From Candidatus Thalassarchaeum sp. (GTDB lineage: Archaea; Thermoplasmatota; Poseidoniia; Poseidoniales; Thalassarchaeaceae), in the NCBI GenBank assembly GCA_022449945.1, contig JAKURM010000004.1, positions 1-51,727 of the forward strand: a stretch of 51,727 nucleotides of DNA, given 5' to 3'. The translations under genes were made by a program, and so were the position numbers. Below the pieces are notes generated by a model. It did not search any database and was not told where the DNA came from. It worked only from the letters and a program-made list of their open reading frames with translations. Shown one piece after another: positions 5,265 to 12,862 of the stretch (its first letter is position 1; every line of letters begins with the position of its first letter).

Positions 5265-5597
5265 TCACCTATCAATCATCAGAATTGCATCTGTCGGACA
5301 GGCTAGGACACATAGCTTACAACCAGTACACGGGTCTCTGAGAATCCTAGCCTTTCTGTTGACATCTACACTCATAATTGGGCTTGCCAGAGGGGTGTCG
5401 TAGAGCTCAATAGCATCATCATCGCATACAATCGTACACTGGTCACACCCAATACACTGTTCTTCCTTAACCCATGCAACAGCATCATCTCCACCCTTCA
5501 AACTAGCCTCTTCTTCAGCCTTCATAGAATTAAGGAGCCTCCTAATTCTTGCCTGTTCTACGGCCCTCCTTTCCAATAGGTCCGGTATCTCAGTCAT
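5265..5597 (-). CDS. 2[4Fe-4S] ferredoxin-type protein
   Basis: CIGCDQCTIVCDDD and CTGCKLCVLACPTDAI clusters. Confidence 0.88.
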   Translation of the reverse strand: MTEIPDLLERRAVEQARIRRLLNSMKAEEEASLKGGDDAVAWVKEEQCIGCDQCTIVCDDDAIELYDTPLASPIMSVDVNRKARILRDPCTGCKLCVLACPTDAILMIDR

Positions 5598-5664: not shown

Positions 5665-8481
5665 CTAAGTCGACTTCGACTCTTCGATCTGTCTAGCTAG
5701 GAAACTCACAACGTCTAAAATTTCGAAGTCATGCCTTGGGTCTCCTTCGAACTTCAGGCATTCGAAGTGTGCTACGCACTTGGGGCATGTTGTCAGCATC
5801 ACATCTGCACCCGTAGCATTCACCTCGTCAAATCTCTGCAACCTTAGAGCACGGCTATTTTCATTACACGACATCATGCTAGAAACGCCACAACAAAGGG
5901 CATCTTCACCCGTATGCTCCATTTCGACTAGCTCGACACCATCTACCGCCCTGACCAAGTCGCGCGGCTCTTCGTAGATATTCATCTGCCTACCGAGTCG
6001 GCAAGGGTCGTGATAAGTCACAGTAACATCATTCTCGGTTCGTAGACTCATGTCAAATCCATTCTCTACTAGGAATTCTGTGGTATGCATAACCTTCATG
6101 TCGTCAAGTTCGTAGTCCAAGGCAAAGGTGCGGAAGCACTCTGCACACGATGTCACCAGAGTGTCTATCCCACTCTGTCCGAGCTTCTTCTGGTTGTATG
6201 CCTTTAACTTTTCAAACACCTCAGTCATTCCTTGCCACTTCTGATCATGCCCGCAGCACTTCAGGAAGTCCCTTCCTAGATATGTAACGGACTCCCCCAT
6301 CTCCTCGAAAATCGTGAATGCCGCGTTTGTGGTCTCTCCGAGGTCCATCTCACCATGATTGACATGGCTGAATATCATCTCTTGATCGATGTAGTCTACG
6401 CATCCTGGGTAGTAGCCAACGCTAGAATCCAGGGGATAGTCTTCTACAGAGATGAACGACTCATCTGCGTCTTCTTCGGCTTCAGCAGCGAGAACTGCTT
6501 GTAATAATGTGTGCGGAATCTCAGCAGCGGGAGGCCCTCCGACAACCAGATTCCTCCTGATGTCGATGTATGAGTCATAGTCAACCAGCTGTGGACATGC
6601 GTTAGTGCATGCGGTGCATGTTAAGCACGAGTACAATGGGACACCGTCATCCTCATTGTTCCATGTATTGTATATGATGTTCAGCTTGTCTCCAGCATTG
6701 AATAGCCTGACTGGACAAGCATCGTCGCACAGGTCGCATCCATAGCACTTGTTCATCTCCCATTCGTAACCCCTTGCCATGCTTCTCATTAGCATGAACA
6801 CAATTGCACCGACTCCTAGGCAAGGAATAAACATCGAATAGATTAGCTTGGCATCCAGACTCTTTGGGTTTTTGTGGTAGGTCGGGTTTTCCAGTGCAAG
6901 GGAGGCTAATTCTGTTAATTCCCTTGTACTATCGGCTCTCGCCAAAGTAGTCCCTTCTTCGGATAGTAGGAGGGGCTGGTAAGCAACAACCGAGAAGTCG
7001 GAAATCATCATGACGCTATCGTTCACTTCGCTGGATTTGGTGACGAACGTAACTGTGTATGATTGAGCCGAATCTAAGTAGATGGTTGCAGACTGGCACG
7101 ATGTTCCACTATTTTCCCACACTAGCTGTCCAGCCTCATCCGTTAGCACCAGGCTTTGTGTGTGGAGTCCAGCATTCCTGACTGTAGTTCTGAAATTGCA
7201 CGAAATATCAGCAGGAACTTCGGAGAGTCCTAGGTCTTCGACCATGAATGTCCTAGACTCTATGATTTCAATATCGCTAGCATCCTCTGAGCCATTATAG
7301 ATTACGTCATCTGCACCAATATTCCTGGAGGTAGATATATCGCTATGCCCATTAACCCCACTGAAGTCAATGATCGTTGACCTAGTCGGTTGGAAAACCC
7401 CCCAATTCGACCAGTATATCGCAGGCATGACACACCATTCGTCGTAGGAGTCGCCTTCGTGGATATCCTCCCAAACTGATAGTTGGCCGGAACTCTCGTA
7501 TGGCAGGCACTTGTCACCCCACTCATCCCAGACATTTCCTTTGTCTACATGGACAAGAGTGTCTGATGGCTGTCCTCTGATGCCATCCAATTCAACCAGC
7601 TTCGCCTCGTTCTGATACTCCCAGAATCCCATTGTCCCGAGTCCTCTCTGATTCCAGAAGCCATTTTCGTAGACAGGCCATGTTATTGCACATAGCAGTA
7701 CGCTAGCGACCAGTGAACCTACCGCAATCTGCCTTCCAAGGATTGGGGTTAATCTAGAACCCATGGGTCCAAGGAGGAACTTTCTCACCGAGAAATACAA
7801 GAGTGCAAAAACGAAAATTCCCGTCAGAACCCATGGAACTGCATTGAATACCTCTGCTGTCCACGGAGACTGCGTGCCGCATCTGAAAACCCCATGCGAG
7901 GTCCCCCAACAGTAGTCTGTTCGATTTTGTCCATACATTTCTAGGAAGATGTTTATCGAGAAAACTGAGATGAACCAAACGTGAGCAAGATATACTGCCC
8001 CAGCAGTAGCAAACCACGGATCTTCGACCCCCCTCTTCTCCCTCTTCCCAATGATGAAGGGGGGTAGTGCCAAGATTCCTACTGGGAGGCCAGTAATTAG
8101 CGCACCCCATACTCCTGCATTCCACGAGACGATCGGTTGTCCAAAGAACTCGCCTATTGGGCCAGCAGGAATGTCGAACTGAGGTAGGTATTCCCCCCAT
8201 CGGAGGTATCCATAGGAGAACAAAACATACCAGTCTGGGAAAACGAAACCAGCCTGGGCATATGGGTCAGCCGCATTGTGCAAAGGTGGGGGGATTATCC
8301 AAGAGTAGAATGCAATAACCATCATTATCGATGCGAAAATTATGGTGTCACGAAGTACCTCTGTTGGCCAGAATGCATGTCCGGTGAAAACCCTCCTCCT
8401 CTCATCTTCCCCTTCTAGTAGGCCTTCCTTTTCACTGATGTAGGTGTCAGCTATCCTTCCGAATCTTTCTATCATCCCCAT
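5665..8481 (-). CDS. Fusion: cytochrome b C-terminal (subunit IV-like) domain + extracytoplasmic domain + HdrD/GlpC/LutA-like Fe-S oxidoreductase
   Basis: N-terminal TM region with PDWY (PEWY-like Qo motif), about 250 aa non-TM segment, one TM, then CYGCDLCDDACP / CLTCTACTNACP clusters and two CCG domains (YPGC..KCCG..SCAEC; HDPC..LCCG..TCPKC). Confidence 0.88.
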   Translation of the reverse strand: MGMIERFGRIADTYISEKEGLLEGEDERRRVFTGHAFWPTEVLRDTIIFASIMMVIAFYSWIIPPPLHNAADPYAQAGFVFPDWYVLFSYGYLRWGEYLPQFDIPAGPIGEFFGQPIVSWNAGVWGALITGLPVGILALPPFIIGKREKRGVEDPWFATAGAVYLAHVWFISVFSINIFLEMYGQNRTDYCWGTSHGVFRCGTQSPWTAEVFNAVPWVLTGIFVFALLYFSVRKFLLGPMGSRLTPILGRQIAVGSLVASVLLCAITWPVYENGFWNQRGLGTMGFWEYQNEAKLVELDGIRGQPSDTLVHVDKGNVWDEWGDKCLPYESSGQLSVWEDIHEGDSYDEWCVMPAIYWSNWGVFQPTRSTIIDFSGVNGHSDISTSRNIGADDVIYNGSEDASDIEIIESRTFMVEDLGLSEVPADISCNFRTTVRNAGLHTQSLVLTDEAGQLVWENSGTSCQSATIYLDSAQSYTVTFVTKSSEVNDSVMMISDFSVVAYQPLLLSEEGTTLARADSTRELTELASLALENPTYHKNPKSLDAKLIYSMFIPCLGVGAIVFMLMRSMARGYEWEMNKCYGCDLCDDACPVRLFNAGDKLNIIYNTWNNEDDGVPLYSCLTCTACTNACPQLVDYDSYIDIRRNLVVGGPPAAEIPHTLLQAVLAAEAEEDADESFISVEDYPLDSSVGYYPGCVDYIDQEMIFSHVNHGEMDLGETTNAAFTIFEEMGESVTYLGRDFLKCCGHDQKWQGMTEVFEKLKAYNQKKLGQSGIDTLVTSCAECFRTFALDYELDDMKVMHTTEFLVENGFDMSLRTENDVTVTYHDPCRLGRQMNIYEEPRDLVRAVDGVELVEMEHTGEDALCCGVSSMMSCNENSRALRLQRFDEVNATGADVMLTTCPKCVAHFECLKFEGDPRHDFEILDVVSFLARQIEESKST

Positions 8482-8490
8482 GTAAACACC

Positions 8491-9363
8491 TCAATGTGGC
8501 TCCGCAATTCCTTGTACCCAAACGATGAAGAGGTGGGCCAGAATAAGGGCCGTTACTATCACCGGTAGAACGAATACATGCAAGAAGTACATCCTAACCA
8601 CAGTCTGTCCCGTGAGAACGGTATCCCCAAAAAGTGCGTTAGCCATCCATTCCCCTATCAAGGGCGTGGCATTAGCCATGTTTATTCCAATCGTGGCCGC
8701 GCCAAACGCCAGACTATCCCATGGAAGTAGATAACCGGAGTAACCGAAAAAGATGGTGAAGAACATCAAAGCCACTCCAATTAGCCAGTTTAGCTCCCTG
8801 GGGTTCCTGTAAGCACCAGTGAAGTAAACCCTGCACATGTGTAGGAATACAGCTGCTACCATGAAGTGAGTAGTCCAGTGGTGAATTGAACGGATTATGT
8901 ATCCGAATGGTAACTCTAGCATAATGAATTCCATTGATGCGTATGCAGGAGTCGGGTCAGAGCTTAGGTCTCCCCCTGGGACATAGTAGAAGCCAAGAAT
9001 CGTCCCAGAAATTACCAGGATAATGAATGCTAGGAATGAGATCCCACCTAAGCAGTACAATGGATACCAATACCAAATAATCCTTAGTTTATACTTCTCA
9101 GCATGAGTTAGTGGCATTTGCCTGTGCATACTGTGGTAAGAATCCCGGCTCATGCCCCAATAGTCCTGGATCCGAAATCTAGTATCAAGCCAAGAGAATG
9201 CCCATAGGAAGGCCTTCTCTGCCAATCCCATACTTCCTGCGTTAGTTTCAACTGCCCTGAGGATATCTTTTCTCGGAATGTCATCCCTCTCCCTCCTTAG
9301 GGTGAATGCAACGATAACCACGACAATTGCTATGAAAATCCAAAGGAACCAGAACTGAATCAT
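8491..9363 (-). CDS. Cytochrome b6-like N-terminal subunit (di-heme)
   Basis: RSIHHWTTHFMVAAVFLHMCRVYFTG and FLHVFVLPVIVTALILAH heme-ligand pairs; GYSGYLLPWD. Confidence 0.93.
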   Translation of the reverse strand: MIQFWFLWIFIAIVVVIVAFTLRRERDDIPRKDILRAVETNAGSMGLAEKAFLWAFSWLDTRFRIQDYWGMSRDSYHSMHRQMPLTHAEKYKLRIIWYWYPLYCLGGISFLAFIILVISGTILGFYYVPGGDLSSDPTPAYASMEFIMLELPFGYIIRSIHHWTTHFMVAAVFLHMCRVYFTGAYRNPRELNWLIGVALMFFTIFFGYSGYLLPWDSLAFGAATIGINMANATPLIGEWMANALFGDTVLTGQTVVRMYFLHVFVLPVIVTALILAHLFIVWVQGIAEPH

Positions 9364-9372
9364 ATTTTTTAC

Positions 9373-10227
9373 CTACCCACAGAATGTGTACCAATCCTTG
9401 AAATCTGGGAGAGCCTCGATTGCATCGCCATTTACAATGAAGGGAATTAGTGGCATGCCATATGGGGCGGGCCCACCTGTCTTTTTTATTCCAATGAAGT
9501 CGAAGTCTTGTCCATTAGACCTGTTCCGAGCAGTGTTCTTCTCAATTACGGTAGGGTCATATCTACTGGAGTGACAGATACAGAAGAGCTTGTTTCCGCC
9601 CGAGTCAGTTCCACCCGGAAGCCAATTGTCTGCAGTGAAGTCATTGTTCACCAACTGCCATCCAGGTATACAACATAGATGCGGGCACCTGGAGAAAATG
9701 ATGATCATGTTGTCGTGAATTGAAAGCGAGGCAAACTCCTCTTTCTCTTCAATTTCATAACCAGAGCCTACGTATGCTCCGCTGGCCGTAACTCCATCCA
9801 TAAGTTGGAATCTCGGCTCGTTCTCACTCAGGGGCCTGTTCGTATTTTCTTCATGTGGTACGTAGACCGCGACAACAGGTAGTCCGGACCAAAGCCCTGC
9901 AGCAGCGGACATTCCCGTGGACGAATCGGCTGCTTCATCTCTGAATGCCTGCATGGTCATCGGTTGCTTATCCATATTCCCATACCATACTTCAGATCCC
10001 TTGGGTGCGTAGAAGAGTATAGCCTGATCCGAACCTCCCGAACTAGCCTGACCCATTAAAAATGAGGCAAAACCTACACTGCCTAGACTTGCCATGGTAA
10101 TCAGGCCGGCTGCCGTATTGAACGACATCCGCATGAATTCTCTTCGATCAACGAATCCTACGCCCTCTTTTGCCGAATCCTCATTTTCATGCAAAGGCCG
10201 TAGTTTGAATCTCCTAGCCATCATCAC
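9373..10227 (-). CDS. Rieske [2Fe-2S] protein
   Basis: DRREFMRMSFNTAAGLI N-terminal anchor/Tat-like segment; CPHLCCIPGW ... FCICHSSRYDP Rieske motifs. Confidence 0.92.
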   Translation of the reverse strand: MMMARRFKLRPLHENEDSAKEGVGFVDRREFMRMSFNTAAGLITMASLGSVGFASFLMGQASSGGSDQAILFYAPKGSEVWYGNMDKQPMTMQAFRDEAADSSTGMSAAAGLWSGLPVVAVYVPHEENTNRPLSENEPRFQLMDGVTASGAYVGSGYEIEEKEEFASLSIHDNMIIIFSRCPHLCCIPGWQLVNNDFTADNWLPGGTDSGGNKLFCICHSSRYDPTVIEKNTARNRSNGQDFDFIGIKKTGGPAPYGMPLIPFIVNGDAIEALPDFKDWYTFCG

Positions 10228-10673
10228 ACCTCATATTTCTTCCATGCTTCTGGATCATTCCTTGTGATGTACTTGTTTCGCCTATGCTTTACTATGATTA
10301 CATCTGGTAAGACATACTTTAGGTACACGATTCCCATGATAATTAGGGTTAGAAGGGTCATTGCTAGGTTGAATGATAGTAGCTGCTGATCCCAGTGTTT
10401 GAATAGTCCATATGAAAGAGAGCCCGCCCAGAAAAGAGTCCAAAGAATTCCCCATAGTCCAACTAGTACGATCAACCAAGAGTCTCCTGACGGCGAAACG
10501 CTCGCTCTAACAATTGTTCCAGGCTTTGGTGAGTTGAATACACCATGATCAACTGCGGCCGAGTAAGACTCTTCAGAAATAGTGACATCTTCAAGTGCCT
10601 TGCGTGCGTCTTCCACGCTTACTTCTCCTGACTCGACTTGTCGGAGTAGGCGCATTACCACGTCGTCCTTCAT
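10224..10673 (-). CDS. Two-TM membrane protein, putative accessory subunit of the cytochrome complex
   Basis: Translationally coupled (4-nt overlaps) between Rieske and upstream CDS; WLIVLVGLWGILWTLFWAGSLSYGLF and LLSFNLAMTLLTLIIMGIVYLKYVL. Confidence 0.7.
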   Translation of the reverse strand: MKDDVVMRLLRQVESGEVSVEDARKALEDVTISEESYSAAVDHGVFNSPKPGTIVRASVSPSGDSWLIVLVGLWGILWTLFWAGSLSYGLFKHWDQQLLSFNLAMTLLTLIIMGIVYLKYVLPDVIIVKHRRNKYITRNDPEAWKKYEV

Positions 10674-11494
10674 AGTTGATCTCCCCTTCTAAGATGCTTT
10701 ATTCTCAGTTTTAGTAGATTACTCCGGCCAACATAATGTCTCGAGAATCCGTACCTGAGAAACAATCCACAGAAGATGATAACAAGCATTACTGCTGCGA
10801 ATCCTAGTAATCCTAGCCAGTGAGCTAGGAGCTCAGCACCCATGTGATGGAGATCTGTGTGCTCTTCCACTGGGGCAGGAGGGTTAATTTCACCATTGCC
10901 GGAGAATATCGTTCTGACCTTGCCGTTATCCGTCCCCTCATCAACACTGGCGGTAAGCCTATTCCACCTGTCTAGGTTTGACGGAGCCATATCGCCATTG
11001 ACAGCATTTCCAGCAACCCAGACAGTCATTGAACCCGATGATTCTTCCGGAGCAGTCCATACAATACTCCACTTCCTGTCAGCCGTGCTGGATCCAGCAT
11101 TGGTGTGCGTTAGGGTGGCCAGGTCACCCTCCCAGTTTTGAACCAGCCCTTCAAAACCATCTCCAGGTGAAAGTTCACCAGAGCTGACTCTCATCGAGAA
11201 TCCCCCAGTGTATGAATCAGCAGATATCTCAGGTCCACCAATCAATTGGATAATTAATTCATATTGCCCCCCAGCCTCGAATTGGTAGGGAAATCCATCT
11301 AAGATCACTGTAACTGAGTTATCCGGACTTTCAGAATGGCACGTGCATCCCGCTAGCGATACATCTCCTTGGTTATTGGCATCGCCACCAACTCCAGTGT
11401 GCAGTGCTTCGCTCGATCCAGCAAATATTGCAATTACAACCAACGTTGCCAAGTACTTTCGATGGGAAATCATTGTCTGTTTCTCACCTTCCAC
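10670..11494 (-). CDS. Secreted/anchored protein with reeler / choice-of-anchor-V-like domain and CTCH motif; C-terminal TM
   Basis: Signal peptide (from internal Met at ~11473), GDVSLAGCTCHSESPDNSVTVILDGFPYQFEAGGQYEL, C-terminal LLGFAAVMLVIIFCGLFLRYGF; first gene of the operon. Confidence 0.65.
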   Translation of the reverse strand: MEGEKQTMISHRKYLATLVVIAIFAGSSEALHTGVGGDANNQGDVSLAGCTCHSESPDNSVTVILDGFPYQFEAGGQYELIIQLIGGPEISADSYTGGFSMRVSSGELSPGDGFEGLVQNWEGDLATLTHTNAGSSTADRKWSIVWTAPEESSGSMTVWVAGNAVNGDMAPSNLDRWNRLTASVDEGTDNGKVRTIFSGNGEINPPAPVEEHTDLHHMGAELLAHWLGLLGFAAVMLVIIFCGLFLRYGFSRHYVGRSNLLKLRIKHLRRGDQL

Positions 11495-11956: not shown

Positions 11957-12862
11957 ATGGAAGAAGGAGCCATTGTCATCGTTGGTGTCGGTGGTATAGG
12001 GTGCGCTTGGTCCCAAAGAGCCCACTCACTCTGCCAGGACCTTGCTGAATTATTATTGGTCGATGCGGACGAATCTTCTTTTTCTTCCGATCATGAAGCC
12101 AATTGTCTGCATCTTGATGCAGCCGGCGATGCAAGGGGGGCAGCCGCCCTACCAAATCTCGCTGAACATAGGTTGAAAGAAGGGATGGGCAACATTCAGC
12201 ACTTCCTTGAGAGATCAGAATTGGTCATCATTCTCTCTGCCCTTGGCGGTGGAACGGGTTCGGGTGCCACCTCTGAGATTGCTGCAAGAGCCAGAGAATC
12301 TGGTAGCCTGGTTTTGAGCATCGTCGGACTGCCCTTTGCCGAACAACCTCTAAGGTGCGCAATTGCCGACGTGGCCCTTCCTGAAATCGAGCGGAACTCT
12401 CACCTTTGCATTAGGGTGAGCCTTGAGAGGCTTGCATGGCAGGCGAGATACCGAAACTCAGACTGGAAGATGGGTTCGGAGTGGATAGGCGAACTTATCG
12501 AGGGTTTGGTTACTACATTAGCCCGAGTAGGAAAGATAAATCTTGATCTGATGGATTTGAGAACAGTTATCGATCGACCTGGTAATGCCACTCTACTAGT
12601 TGGCACGGGTTCGACTGAGAACCCATCAGAAGTTGTTCGCATGGCCCGAGAGTCACCCATGTCTGAGATCGGTGTCGATGGAGCAAAGGGTTGCTTGATA
12701 CAGGTTGAGGGCGGTCCTGACATGACTTTGGCACACCTGGATGCAGTTTCAGAAGGTTTTGTCTCTGCACTGGACAGTGACTGCCAGGTAATTCTTGGAG
12801 CCCGGTCAAGTGACGATATGGCCGGAAGCCTAAGACTCGTAGCCGTAGTCAGTGGCCTCTAG
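11957..12862 (+). CDS. Divergent FtsZ/tubulin-superfamily GTPase
   Basis: IVGVGGIGCAW N-terminal nucleotide-binding loop, ALGGGTGSGATSEIAARARESGSLVLSIVGLPF (T4 GGGTGS[T]G), KINLDLMDLRTVI (NxDxxD catalytic loop). Confidence 0.78.
   Translation: MEEGAIVIVGVGGIGCAWSQRAHSLCQDLAELLLVDADESSFSSDHEANCLHLDAAGDARGAAALPNLAEHRLKEGMGNIQHFLERSELVIILSALGGGTGSGATSEIAARARESGSLVLSIVGLPFAEQPLRCAIADVALPEIERNSHLCIRVSLERLAWQARYRNSDWKMGSEWIGELIEGLVTTLARVGKINLDLMDLRTVIDRPGNATLLVGTGSTENPSEVVRMARESPMSEIGVDGAKGCLIQVEGGPDMTLAHLDAVSEGFVSALDSDCQVILGARSSDDMAGSLRLVAVVSGL

Follow-up and report, generated by a model that had tools for sequence, protein, structure and literature searches.

Subunit IV of a Rieske/cytochrome b complex is covalently joined to an HdrD-type iron-sulfur module in the Poseidoniales, and the two form a true single open reading frame across this group. 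We found this petD::HdrD-type fusion, of 938 aa, at 5665..8481 on the minus strand of the window, which is the whole stretch of 51,727 nucleotides from a Candidatus Thalassarchaeum sp. contig (JAKURM010000004.1) that was analysed here. The fusion, its operon, the conserved ligands, the conserved heme c_n cysteine and the Hdr-type ligand set can all be read from the sequences compared. On balance, we favour the reading that complex III of the Poseidoniales (Marine Group II) is a b6f-like, menaquinol-type complex in which the cytoplasmic HdrCB (HdrD)-type module would serve as a second electron port, with net input favoured.

A single gene throughout Poseidoniales

In the ORF listing, the fusion gene is read from 8481 to 5665 on the minus strand, while the plus strand of 5665-8481 has many stops. 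The coordinates and the length given in a first-pass annotation of this DNA agree with the listing, and the strand can be added as minus. Its product carries, in order, subunit IV with the PDWY motif, five transmembrane (TM) helices, an extracytoplasmic domain of 275 aa, a sixth TM helix, two [4Fe-4S] sites and two complete CCG domains.

For the phylum-wide search, the gene was counted as full-length where one alignment took in at least 932 of the 938 residues in a single stop-free frame, and 90 genomes, all of Poseidoniales, encode it in this form. In other Poseidoniales, the alignment is mostly interrupted only at contig ends or within the variable outer domain. The named records bearing the fusion represent many independent assemblies, from MAGs as well as single-cell-type isolates, and one genome (G015), a single-contig chromosome of 2.06 Mb, encodes it uninterrupted. 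The covalent tie between subunit IV and an HdrD-type module, proposed in the first-pass annotation, is therefore borne out by 90 single frames that pass from domain to domain without frameshift or stop. A joining of two genes by assembly or annotation is refuted by the same survey, with its many assemblies and its single-contig chromosome, and we give this explanation practically no weight; it could appeal to the Marine Group III-like (MGIII) genomes, which encode the CCG part separately, and nothing in its favour was seen in Poseidoniales. Across 56 diverse Poseidoniales sequences, all 18 Fe-S cysteines are kept without exception apart from C743 (55/56), a conservation that places the features of the fusion far beyond chance.

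A record titled Acidimicrobiaceae bacterium (L093) also holds a Poseidoniales-type fusion, which is 75% identical, so that this contig is probably mis-binned.

Subunit IV and membrane topology

Residues 1-190 (7912..8481, minus strand) correspond to subunit IV of cytochrome b with its helices E, F and G, as found by comparing a profile (A3) with the PDB. Pfam Cytochrom_B_C gave no match in this genome, and a family profile was needed. The subunit IV profile, made from 15 members (the N-terminal region and its relatives), matched b6f subunit IV at 2e-9 and, more strongly (5e-12), the C-terminal halves of solved cytochromes b, whose PEWY falls on PDWY in the alignment. The stretch HNAADPYAQAGFVFPDWYVLFSYGYLRWG is indeed present, with PDWY at residues 82-85 (8227..8238, minus strand), and the motif is invariant in 56/56 sequences and in every outgroup having the region. 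Since PDWY is common to all relatives examined, its replacement of PEWY, which had been singled out earlier, is real but not in itself remarkable.

Hydropathy places the TM helices of the fusion at residues 46-64, 127-145, 162-180, 214-232, 252-270 and 546-564. This pattern of five helices, 275 aa and one more helix reproduces the earlier description of about five helices, a long extracytoplasmic stretch and a further helix. Two of the helices (residues 214-270; 7672..7842, minus strand) are an insertion of the Poseidoniales, absent from the relatives in lineages f22 and f25 and in MGIII. They are followed by an acidic, beta-rich domain (residues 271-545; 6847..7671, minus strand), assigned as extracytoplasmic by topology and as beta-rich by AlphaFold2 strands, with weak GOLD/beta-sandwich fold matches. 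Its C428 and C462 are kept in 54-56 of 56 Poseidoniales sequences, and the conserved outer-loop cysteines C191, C201, C428 and C462 are consistent with disulfides. The last helix (residues 546-564; 6790..6846, minus strand) is predicted to run from the outside to the cytoplasm.

Because PDWY must face the p-side and the fusion has six TM helices (four in its relatives), the Fe-S part would lie on the side of the N-terminus, that is, in the cytoplasm. The Lys+Arg counts of successive loops (7, 1, 4, 2, 4) agree with the positive-inside rule, and the relatives with four TM helices put the Fe-S part on the same side. We infer that the Fe-S module faces the cytoplasm, a prediction from sequence in which the charge distribution joins the TM parity already invoked in the first-pass annotation. 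AlphaFold2 modelled the fusion alone with a pLDDT of 80.8. When cytochrome b6 and the fusion were modelled as one chain, by in-frame read-through of the b6 TGA as a modelling device only, the AlphaFold2 model was poor (pTM 0.41), without usable inter-subunit geometry or cofactor distances.

The Fe-S module and its type

The Fe-S part starts with an HdrC-like pair of [4Fe-4S] sites (residues 575-631; 6589..6759, minus strand), recognized by Pfam Fer4 and by HdrC chains (3e-7 to 2e-5), whose eight cysteines are kept in 56/56 sequences and form the motifs C579xxCxxCxxxC589 and C619xxCxxCxxxC629. Two CCG domains follow, both supported by Pfam, conservation and alignment with HdrB. The first (6136..6402, minus strand) reads C694-x47-C742C743-x35-C779xxC782 and the second (5776..6003, minus strand) C827-x35-C863C864-x34-C899xxC902; for both [4Fe-4S] motifs and both CCG domains, the spacings are exactly as had been counted by eye in the earlier reading. 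On the fusion, Pfam gave CCG at 1.2e-23 (two stretches) and Fer4_9 and Fer4_8 at about 5e-7.

In a profile search, the best solved relatives of the Fe-S part were EtfD (9ojn, 3e-38), HdrC and HdrB (2e-6), and the fold matches were EtfD, LutA and HdrB. Because EtfD was the top solved match, by sequence as by fold, our first working hypothesis was an EtfD/EMO-type ETF dehydrogenase passing beta-oxidation electrons to complex III. ETF-family genes, present in 120 of 126 genomes, would suit this hypothesis; most genomes lack the ETF-QO Fe-S domain, which was matched in 5 of 60. The cluster ligands argue otherwise. In Hdr proteins, CCG1 contains a second Cys and each CxxC contributes a bridging Cys; in EtfD, Thr replaces that second Cys and CPHC supplies a capping His (PMC13083937). 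The fusion has the Hdr set, with Cys743 in 55/56 sequences and Cys782 and Cys902 in 56/56, and it carries CC and CAEC without a capping His, so that the EtfD/EMO hallmarks are missing. Its two [4Fe-4S] sites and two CCG domains with five Cys each, bridging Cys included, are the ligand set of HdrD/HdrBC. In addition, the genome encodes a separate EtfD-like protein (L176:1355-3436, minus strand, contig C46), with a NarI-like membrane part, HdrD, CS and CPHC, which is probably the ETF:quinone oxidoreductase of this archaeon, and the etfAB neighbourhoods examined had no link to the fusion operon. With Hdr-type ligands in the fusion and another candidate partner for ETF, the ETF-dehydrogenase hypothesis was demoted, and we now consider it highly improbable. 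By its ligands, the Fe-S module of the fusion is Hdr-type, not ETF-oxidoreductase-type.

The operon holds neither an HdrE-type cytochrome b nor an HdrA partner, and has subunit IV and cytochrome b6 instead. Of the HdrD/GlpC-like label first given to the module, the Hdr-type half stands, on the CC and the bridging Cys, while the operon showed no dehydrogenase for lactate or glycerol-3-P that could act as its partner. One could also imagine that the Fe-S part transfers no electrons and is carried along as an evolutionary passenger or serves for docking or regulation, as related lineages exist without the module. Given that the cluster ligands are all kept in 55-56 of 56 sequences and that an adjoining Fe-S partner is retained, this seems even less credible than an ETF dehydrogenase.

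Elsewhere in the genome, contig C20 encodes an HdrB/SdhE-like protein of 286 aa (L178:4392-5252, minus strand) adjoining an unusual flavodoxin-like ORF.

Cytochrome b6 and a predicted heme c_n site

The cytochrome b6 of the operon (290 aa; 8491..9363, minus strand; Pfam 3.7e-41) has an extra N-terminal TM helix, retains the four heme-b His and matches the solved b6f cytochrome b6 chains at 9e-42. Of 21 genomes, 18 carry one copy of it; the other three show two b6 copies, a pair of partial matches lying on different contigs, and no match, respectively. Direct alignment with 6rqf_I and 1vf5_A equates its Cys104 (codon 9052..9054, minus strand) with Cys35 of b6f, the covalent heme c_n ligand, and Cys104 is the predicted attachment site of this heme.

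The equivalent residue is Cys in 128/128 Poseidoniales sequences, as well as in f22, f25 and one MGIII genus, and Ser in the other MGIII genus. It is Ser, Thr or Ala in the unfused lineages f4, f15, f21, f23, f32 and f39, while f31 has an unfused petD and yet Cys at this position. In the tree, most unfused lineages, those with Ser/Thr/Ala, form one clade (100/99). Thus, the correlation between the heme c_n Cys and the module, which reflects few independent events and has f31 and one MGIII genus as exceptions, is suggestive, and not strong independent support.

The cytochrome b6 ORF of f25 is 941-1074 aa long, with a long extracellular-looking N-terminal part (L146:788-3613, L223:1420-4644).

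Other subunits of the operon

Read 5' to 3' on the minus strand, the operon encodes a choice-of-anchor V protein, a DUF7318-like protein, the Rieske protein, cytochrome b6, the fusion and a 2[4Fe-4S] ferredoxin, an order kept across Poseidoniales. The anchor-V gene (274 aa; 10670..11494, minus strand; NCBIfam 1.3e-23) always comes first; its product has CxCH and a C-terminal TM helix, and C50, C52, H53 and H130 are kept in 96-97 of 97 sequences. Searches with Pfam and NCBIfam found neither cytochrome f nor c1 in the operon, only this CxCH protein, which is a candidate for a p-side redox subunit replacing cytochrome f/c1. The same databases revealed no FAD- or NAD(P)-binding domain in the fusion or the operon. 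The DUF7318-like small membrane protein (149 aa; 10224..10673, minus strand; Pfam 1.4e-5, just below the cut-off) is syntenic. The Rieske protein (284 aa; 9373..10227, minus strand; NCBIfam TIGR01416 5.8e-9, below its cut-off) has CPHLCC and CICH, and the cluster ligands of both boxes are kept in 133 of 134 sequences. With two His pairs, a separate subunit IV, P(E/D)WY and a Rieske protein with both ligand boxes, the complex belongs to the Rieske/cytochrome b class (b6f-type); the lack of cytochrome f/c1 bears on b6f or bc1 proper and not on this wider class.

The ferredoxin (110 aa; 5265..5597, minus strand) lies 67 bases downstream of the fusion, and its eight Cys are conserved. A relative of it is found near the fusion in 125 loci, in opposite orientation in several Poseidoniaceae, and the single-contig genome G015 has no ferredoxin adjoining the fusion. 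In each fused or split lineage seen, a ferredoxin, a 4x[4Fe-4S] polyferredoxin or an HdrA-like flavoprotein adjoins the module.

Upstream of the operon and divergent from it, positions 11957-12862 of the window (plus strand) hold a diverged FtsZ/tubulin-family gene; a similar-looking gene adjoins the operon in G015 (L151).

Relatives and origin of the fusion

Our survey covered the Thermoplasmatota, and the same operon is present in other members of this phylum. There, petD is unfused and encodes 234-273 aa in f4, f15, f23, f31, f32 and f39, and in f21 it encodes 579 aa without Fe-S motifs. The fusions of f25 and f22, of 606 and 789 aa, have no outer domain and are followed by an HdrA-like flavoprotein, a neighbour seen only in f25 (L146), or by a 4x[4Fe-4S] polyferredoxin. 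In the MGIII-like genomes, named so by kinship (same class, another order-level family), petD, a TM helix and the 2[4Fe-4S] part are one ORF, which overlaps a further ORF for the CCG part; in two genomes, a polyferredoxin comes next.

A fully split petD/Fe-S arrangement was sought in the relatives, and only the MGIII-like genomes are split, after the [4Fe-4S] pair, so that even there petD keeps its covalent link to the first section of the Fe-S part. Two separate ORFs in related genomes had been named at the outset as the finding that would speak against a fusion; they are absent in Poseidoniales, and occur only in MGIII-like genomes and with this late break. The MGIII copies each miss one CCG1 ligand, with Gly at 782 or Ser at 743. 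Their [4Fe-4S] and CCG genes overlap by 4 bases (L149:955-958, L150:8675-8678), which suggests coupled translation.

In the tree, the Fe-S parts, fused and split, form one clade (100/99) apart from the other Hdr proteins of the phylum, so the association of petD with the Fe-S part probably arose once. The end of unfused petD, ...GYExxLNxxYYKVR, aligns with GYEWEMNKCYGC...CPVR, the start of the Fe-S part (L214:7617-8321, L216-L222), and this C-terminus may be the remnant of a lost module.

Discussion

While the parts of this complex are each known, their combination, in which an Hdr module is covalently part of a Rieske/cytochrome b complex, is new to the literature searched. We found no description of it in the open-access literature, and the consulted part of a survey of archaeal fusions (PMC11237513) does not mention it. 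Like b6f (PetB/PetD/PetC), the complex has a four-helix cytochrome b6 with four heme-b His and the Cys35 equivalent, a separate subunit IV and a Rieske protein. Unlike b6f, it has PDWY for PEWY, an operon without cytochrome f, and a subunit IV with 5+1 TM helices, a large outer domain and a C-terminal Hdr-type module. The nearest design is that of the anammox complexes Kuste4569-4574 and Kustd1480-1485, where Rieske/cytochrome b goes with an NAD(P) oxidoreductase subunit that has FAD and an NfnABC-like fold (PMC12954380). Both share a b6-like cytochrome, heme c_n (here the Cys only), a five-TM subunit IV and a cytoplasmic Fe-S redox enzyme (here predicted). In contrast to the anammox complexes, the HdrCB-type module is covalent on subunit IV and has no flavin or NAD domain.

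Hdr-type Fe-S modules are used by methanogens for thiols and ferredoxin. The fusion resembles HdrDE in its 2x[4Fe-4S], its two complete CCG domains and its b-type cytochrome partner; however, HdrE is a b cytochrome without Rieske protein or Q-cycle, unrelated to subunit IV/b6, and the known substrates of HdrDE are CoM/CoB. EtfD (9ojn) also combines a membrane part, two [4Fe-4S] sites and two CCG domains in a single chain, and takes the electrons of a cytosolic carrier to menaquinone; besides its Thr and His cap, it differs from the fusion in a single-heme, five-TM membrane part (PMC13083937). In Marine Group II, Tully 2019 (PMC6336850) reported an RnfB that lacks the other Rnf subunits, as well as cytochrome b and Rieske proteins in the absence of a canonical bc1. 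The 110-aa ferredoxin of the operon matches TIGR01944 rnfB, and differs from RnfB in scoring below the cut-off and in having 2[4Fe-4S] only; it may be the orphan RnfB of that study.

The 2-oxoacid:ferredoxin oxidoreductase family is present in 39 of 40 genomes and the NADH-binding NuoF is absent in 37 of 40, so reduced ferredoxin is likely to be a major carrier. We infer the cofactor content and the electron path of the complex as follows. Ferredoxin and/or a thiol/disulfide pair would exchange electrons at the CCG site of the Hdr-type module, and the electrons would cross the two [4Fe-4S] clusters adjoining the last TM helix to reach heme c_n/b_n and then the quinone at the Qn site. On the other side, PDWY and the Rieske protein would sustain a normal Q-cycle. 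Net input would be favoured, with ferredoxin reduced by 2-oxoacid oxidoreductases and/or dithiols feeding the quinone pool.

The flow could also be outward. Quinol oxidation at Qo would then be bifurcated, with one electron going to Rieske and O2 and the other through b_p, b_n and c_n to the Hdr module, where a cytoplasmic disulfide or ferredoxin would be reduced; the light-driven proton-motive force (pmf) of proteorhodopsin could help. The cofactor chain is identical to that of the input reading, the catalytic ligands are Hdr-type, and the anammox complexes, with heme c_n and a cytoplasmic oxidoreductase, offer a precedent proposed for NAD(P) (PMC12954380). Nevertheless, output needs pmf drive or unusually low b-heme potentials, and a normal Q-cycle would call for the same complete Qo machinery. 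We regard output as rather unlikely, and input as the more likely net direction of the second electron port. It is also tempting to propose, more tentatively than the second port itself, a three-way electron exchanger in which heme c_n would wire the Qn side to a catalytic Hdr-type centre; either quinol bifurcation, helped by light-driven pmf, would then make a cytoplasmic reductant, or ferredoxin and thiols would feed the Q-cycle.

In the sunlit ocean, Poseidoniales rank with the most abundant archaea. The fusion supplies the subunit IV missing from their only respiratory complex III, which has been described as incomplete, and its operon probably explains the orphan ferredoxin/RnfB of the same report (PMC6336850). 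Beside the anammox complexes, the fusion is a second evolutionary solution for placing an n-side redox enzyme on a Rieske/cytochrome b complex. Ferredoxin electrons are postulated to enter b6f at heme c_n, and this step of cyclic electron flow is debated (PMC9342900); with an Fe-S module built into the predicted heme c_n face, the passage from ferredoxin to quinone via heme c_n becomes testable. If the exchanger proves true, the ferredoxin:quinone reductase activity long sought in b6f would exist here in a natural, covalent version.
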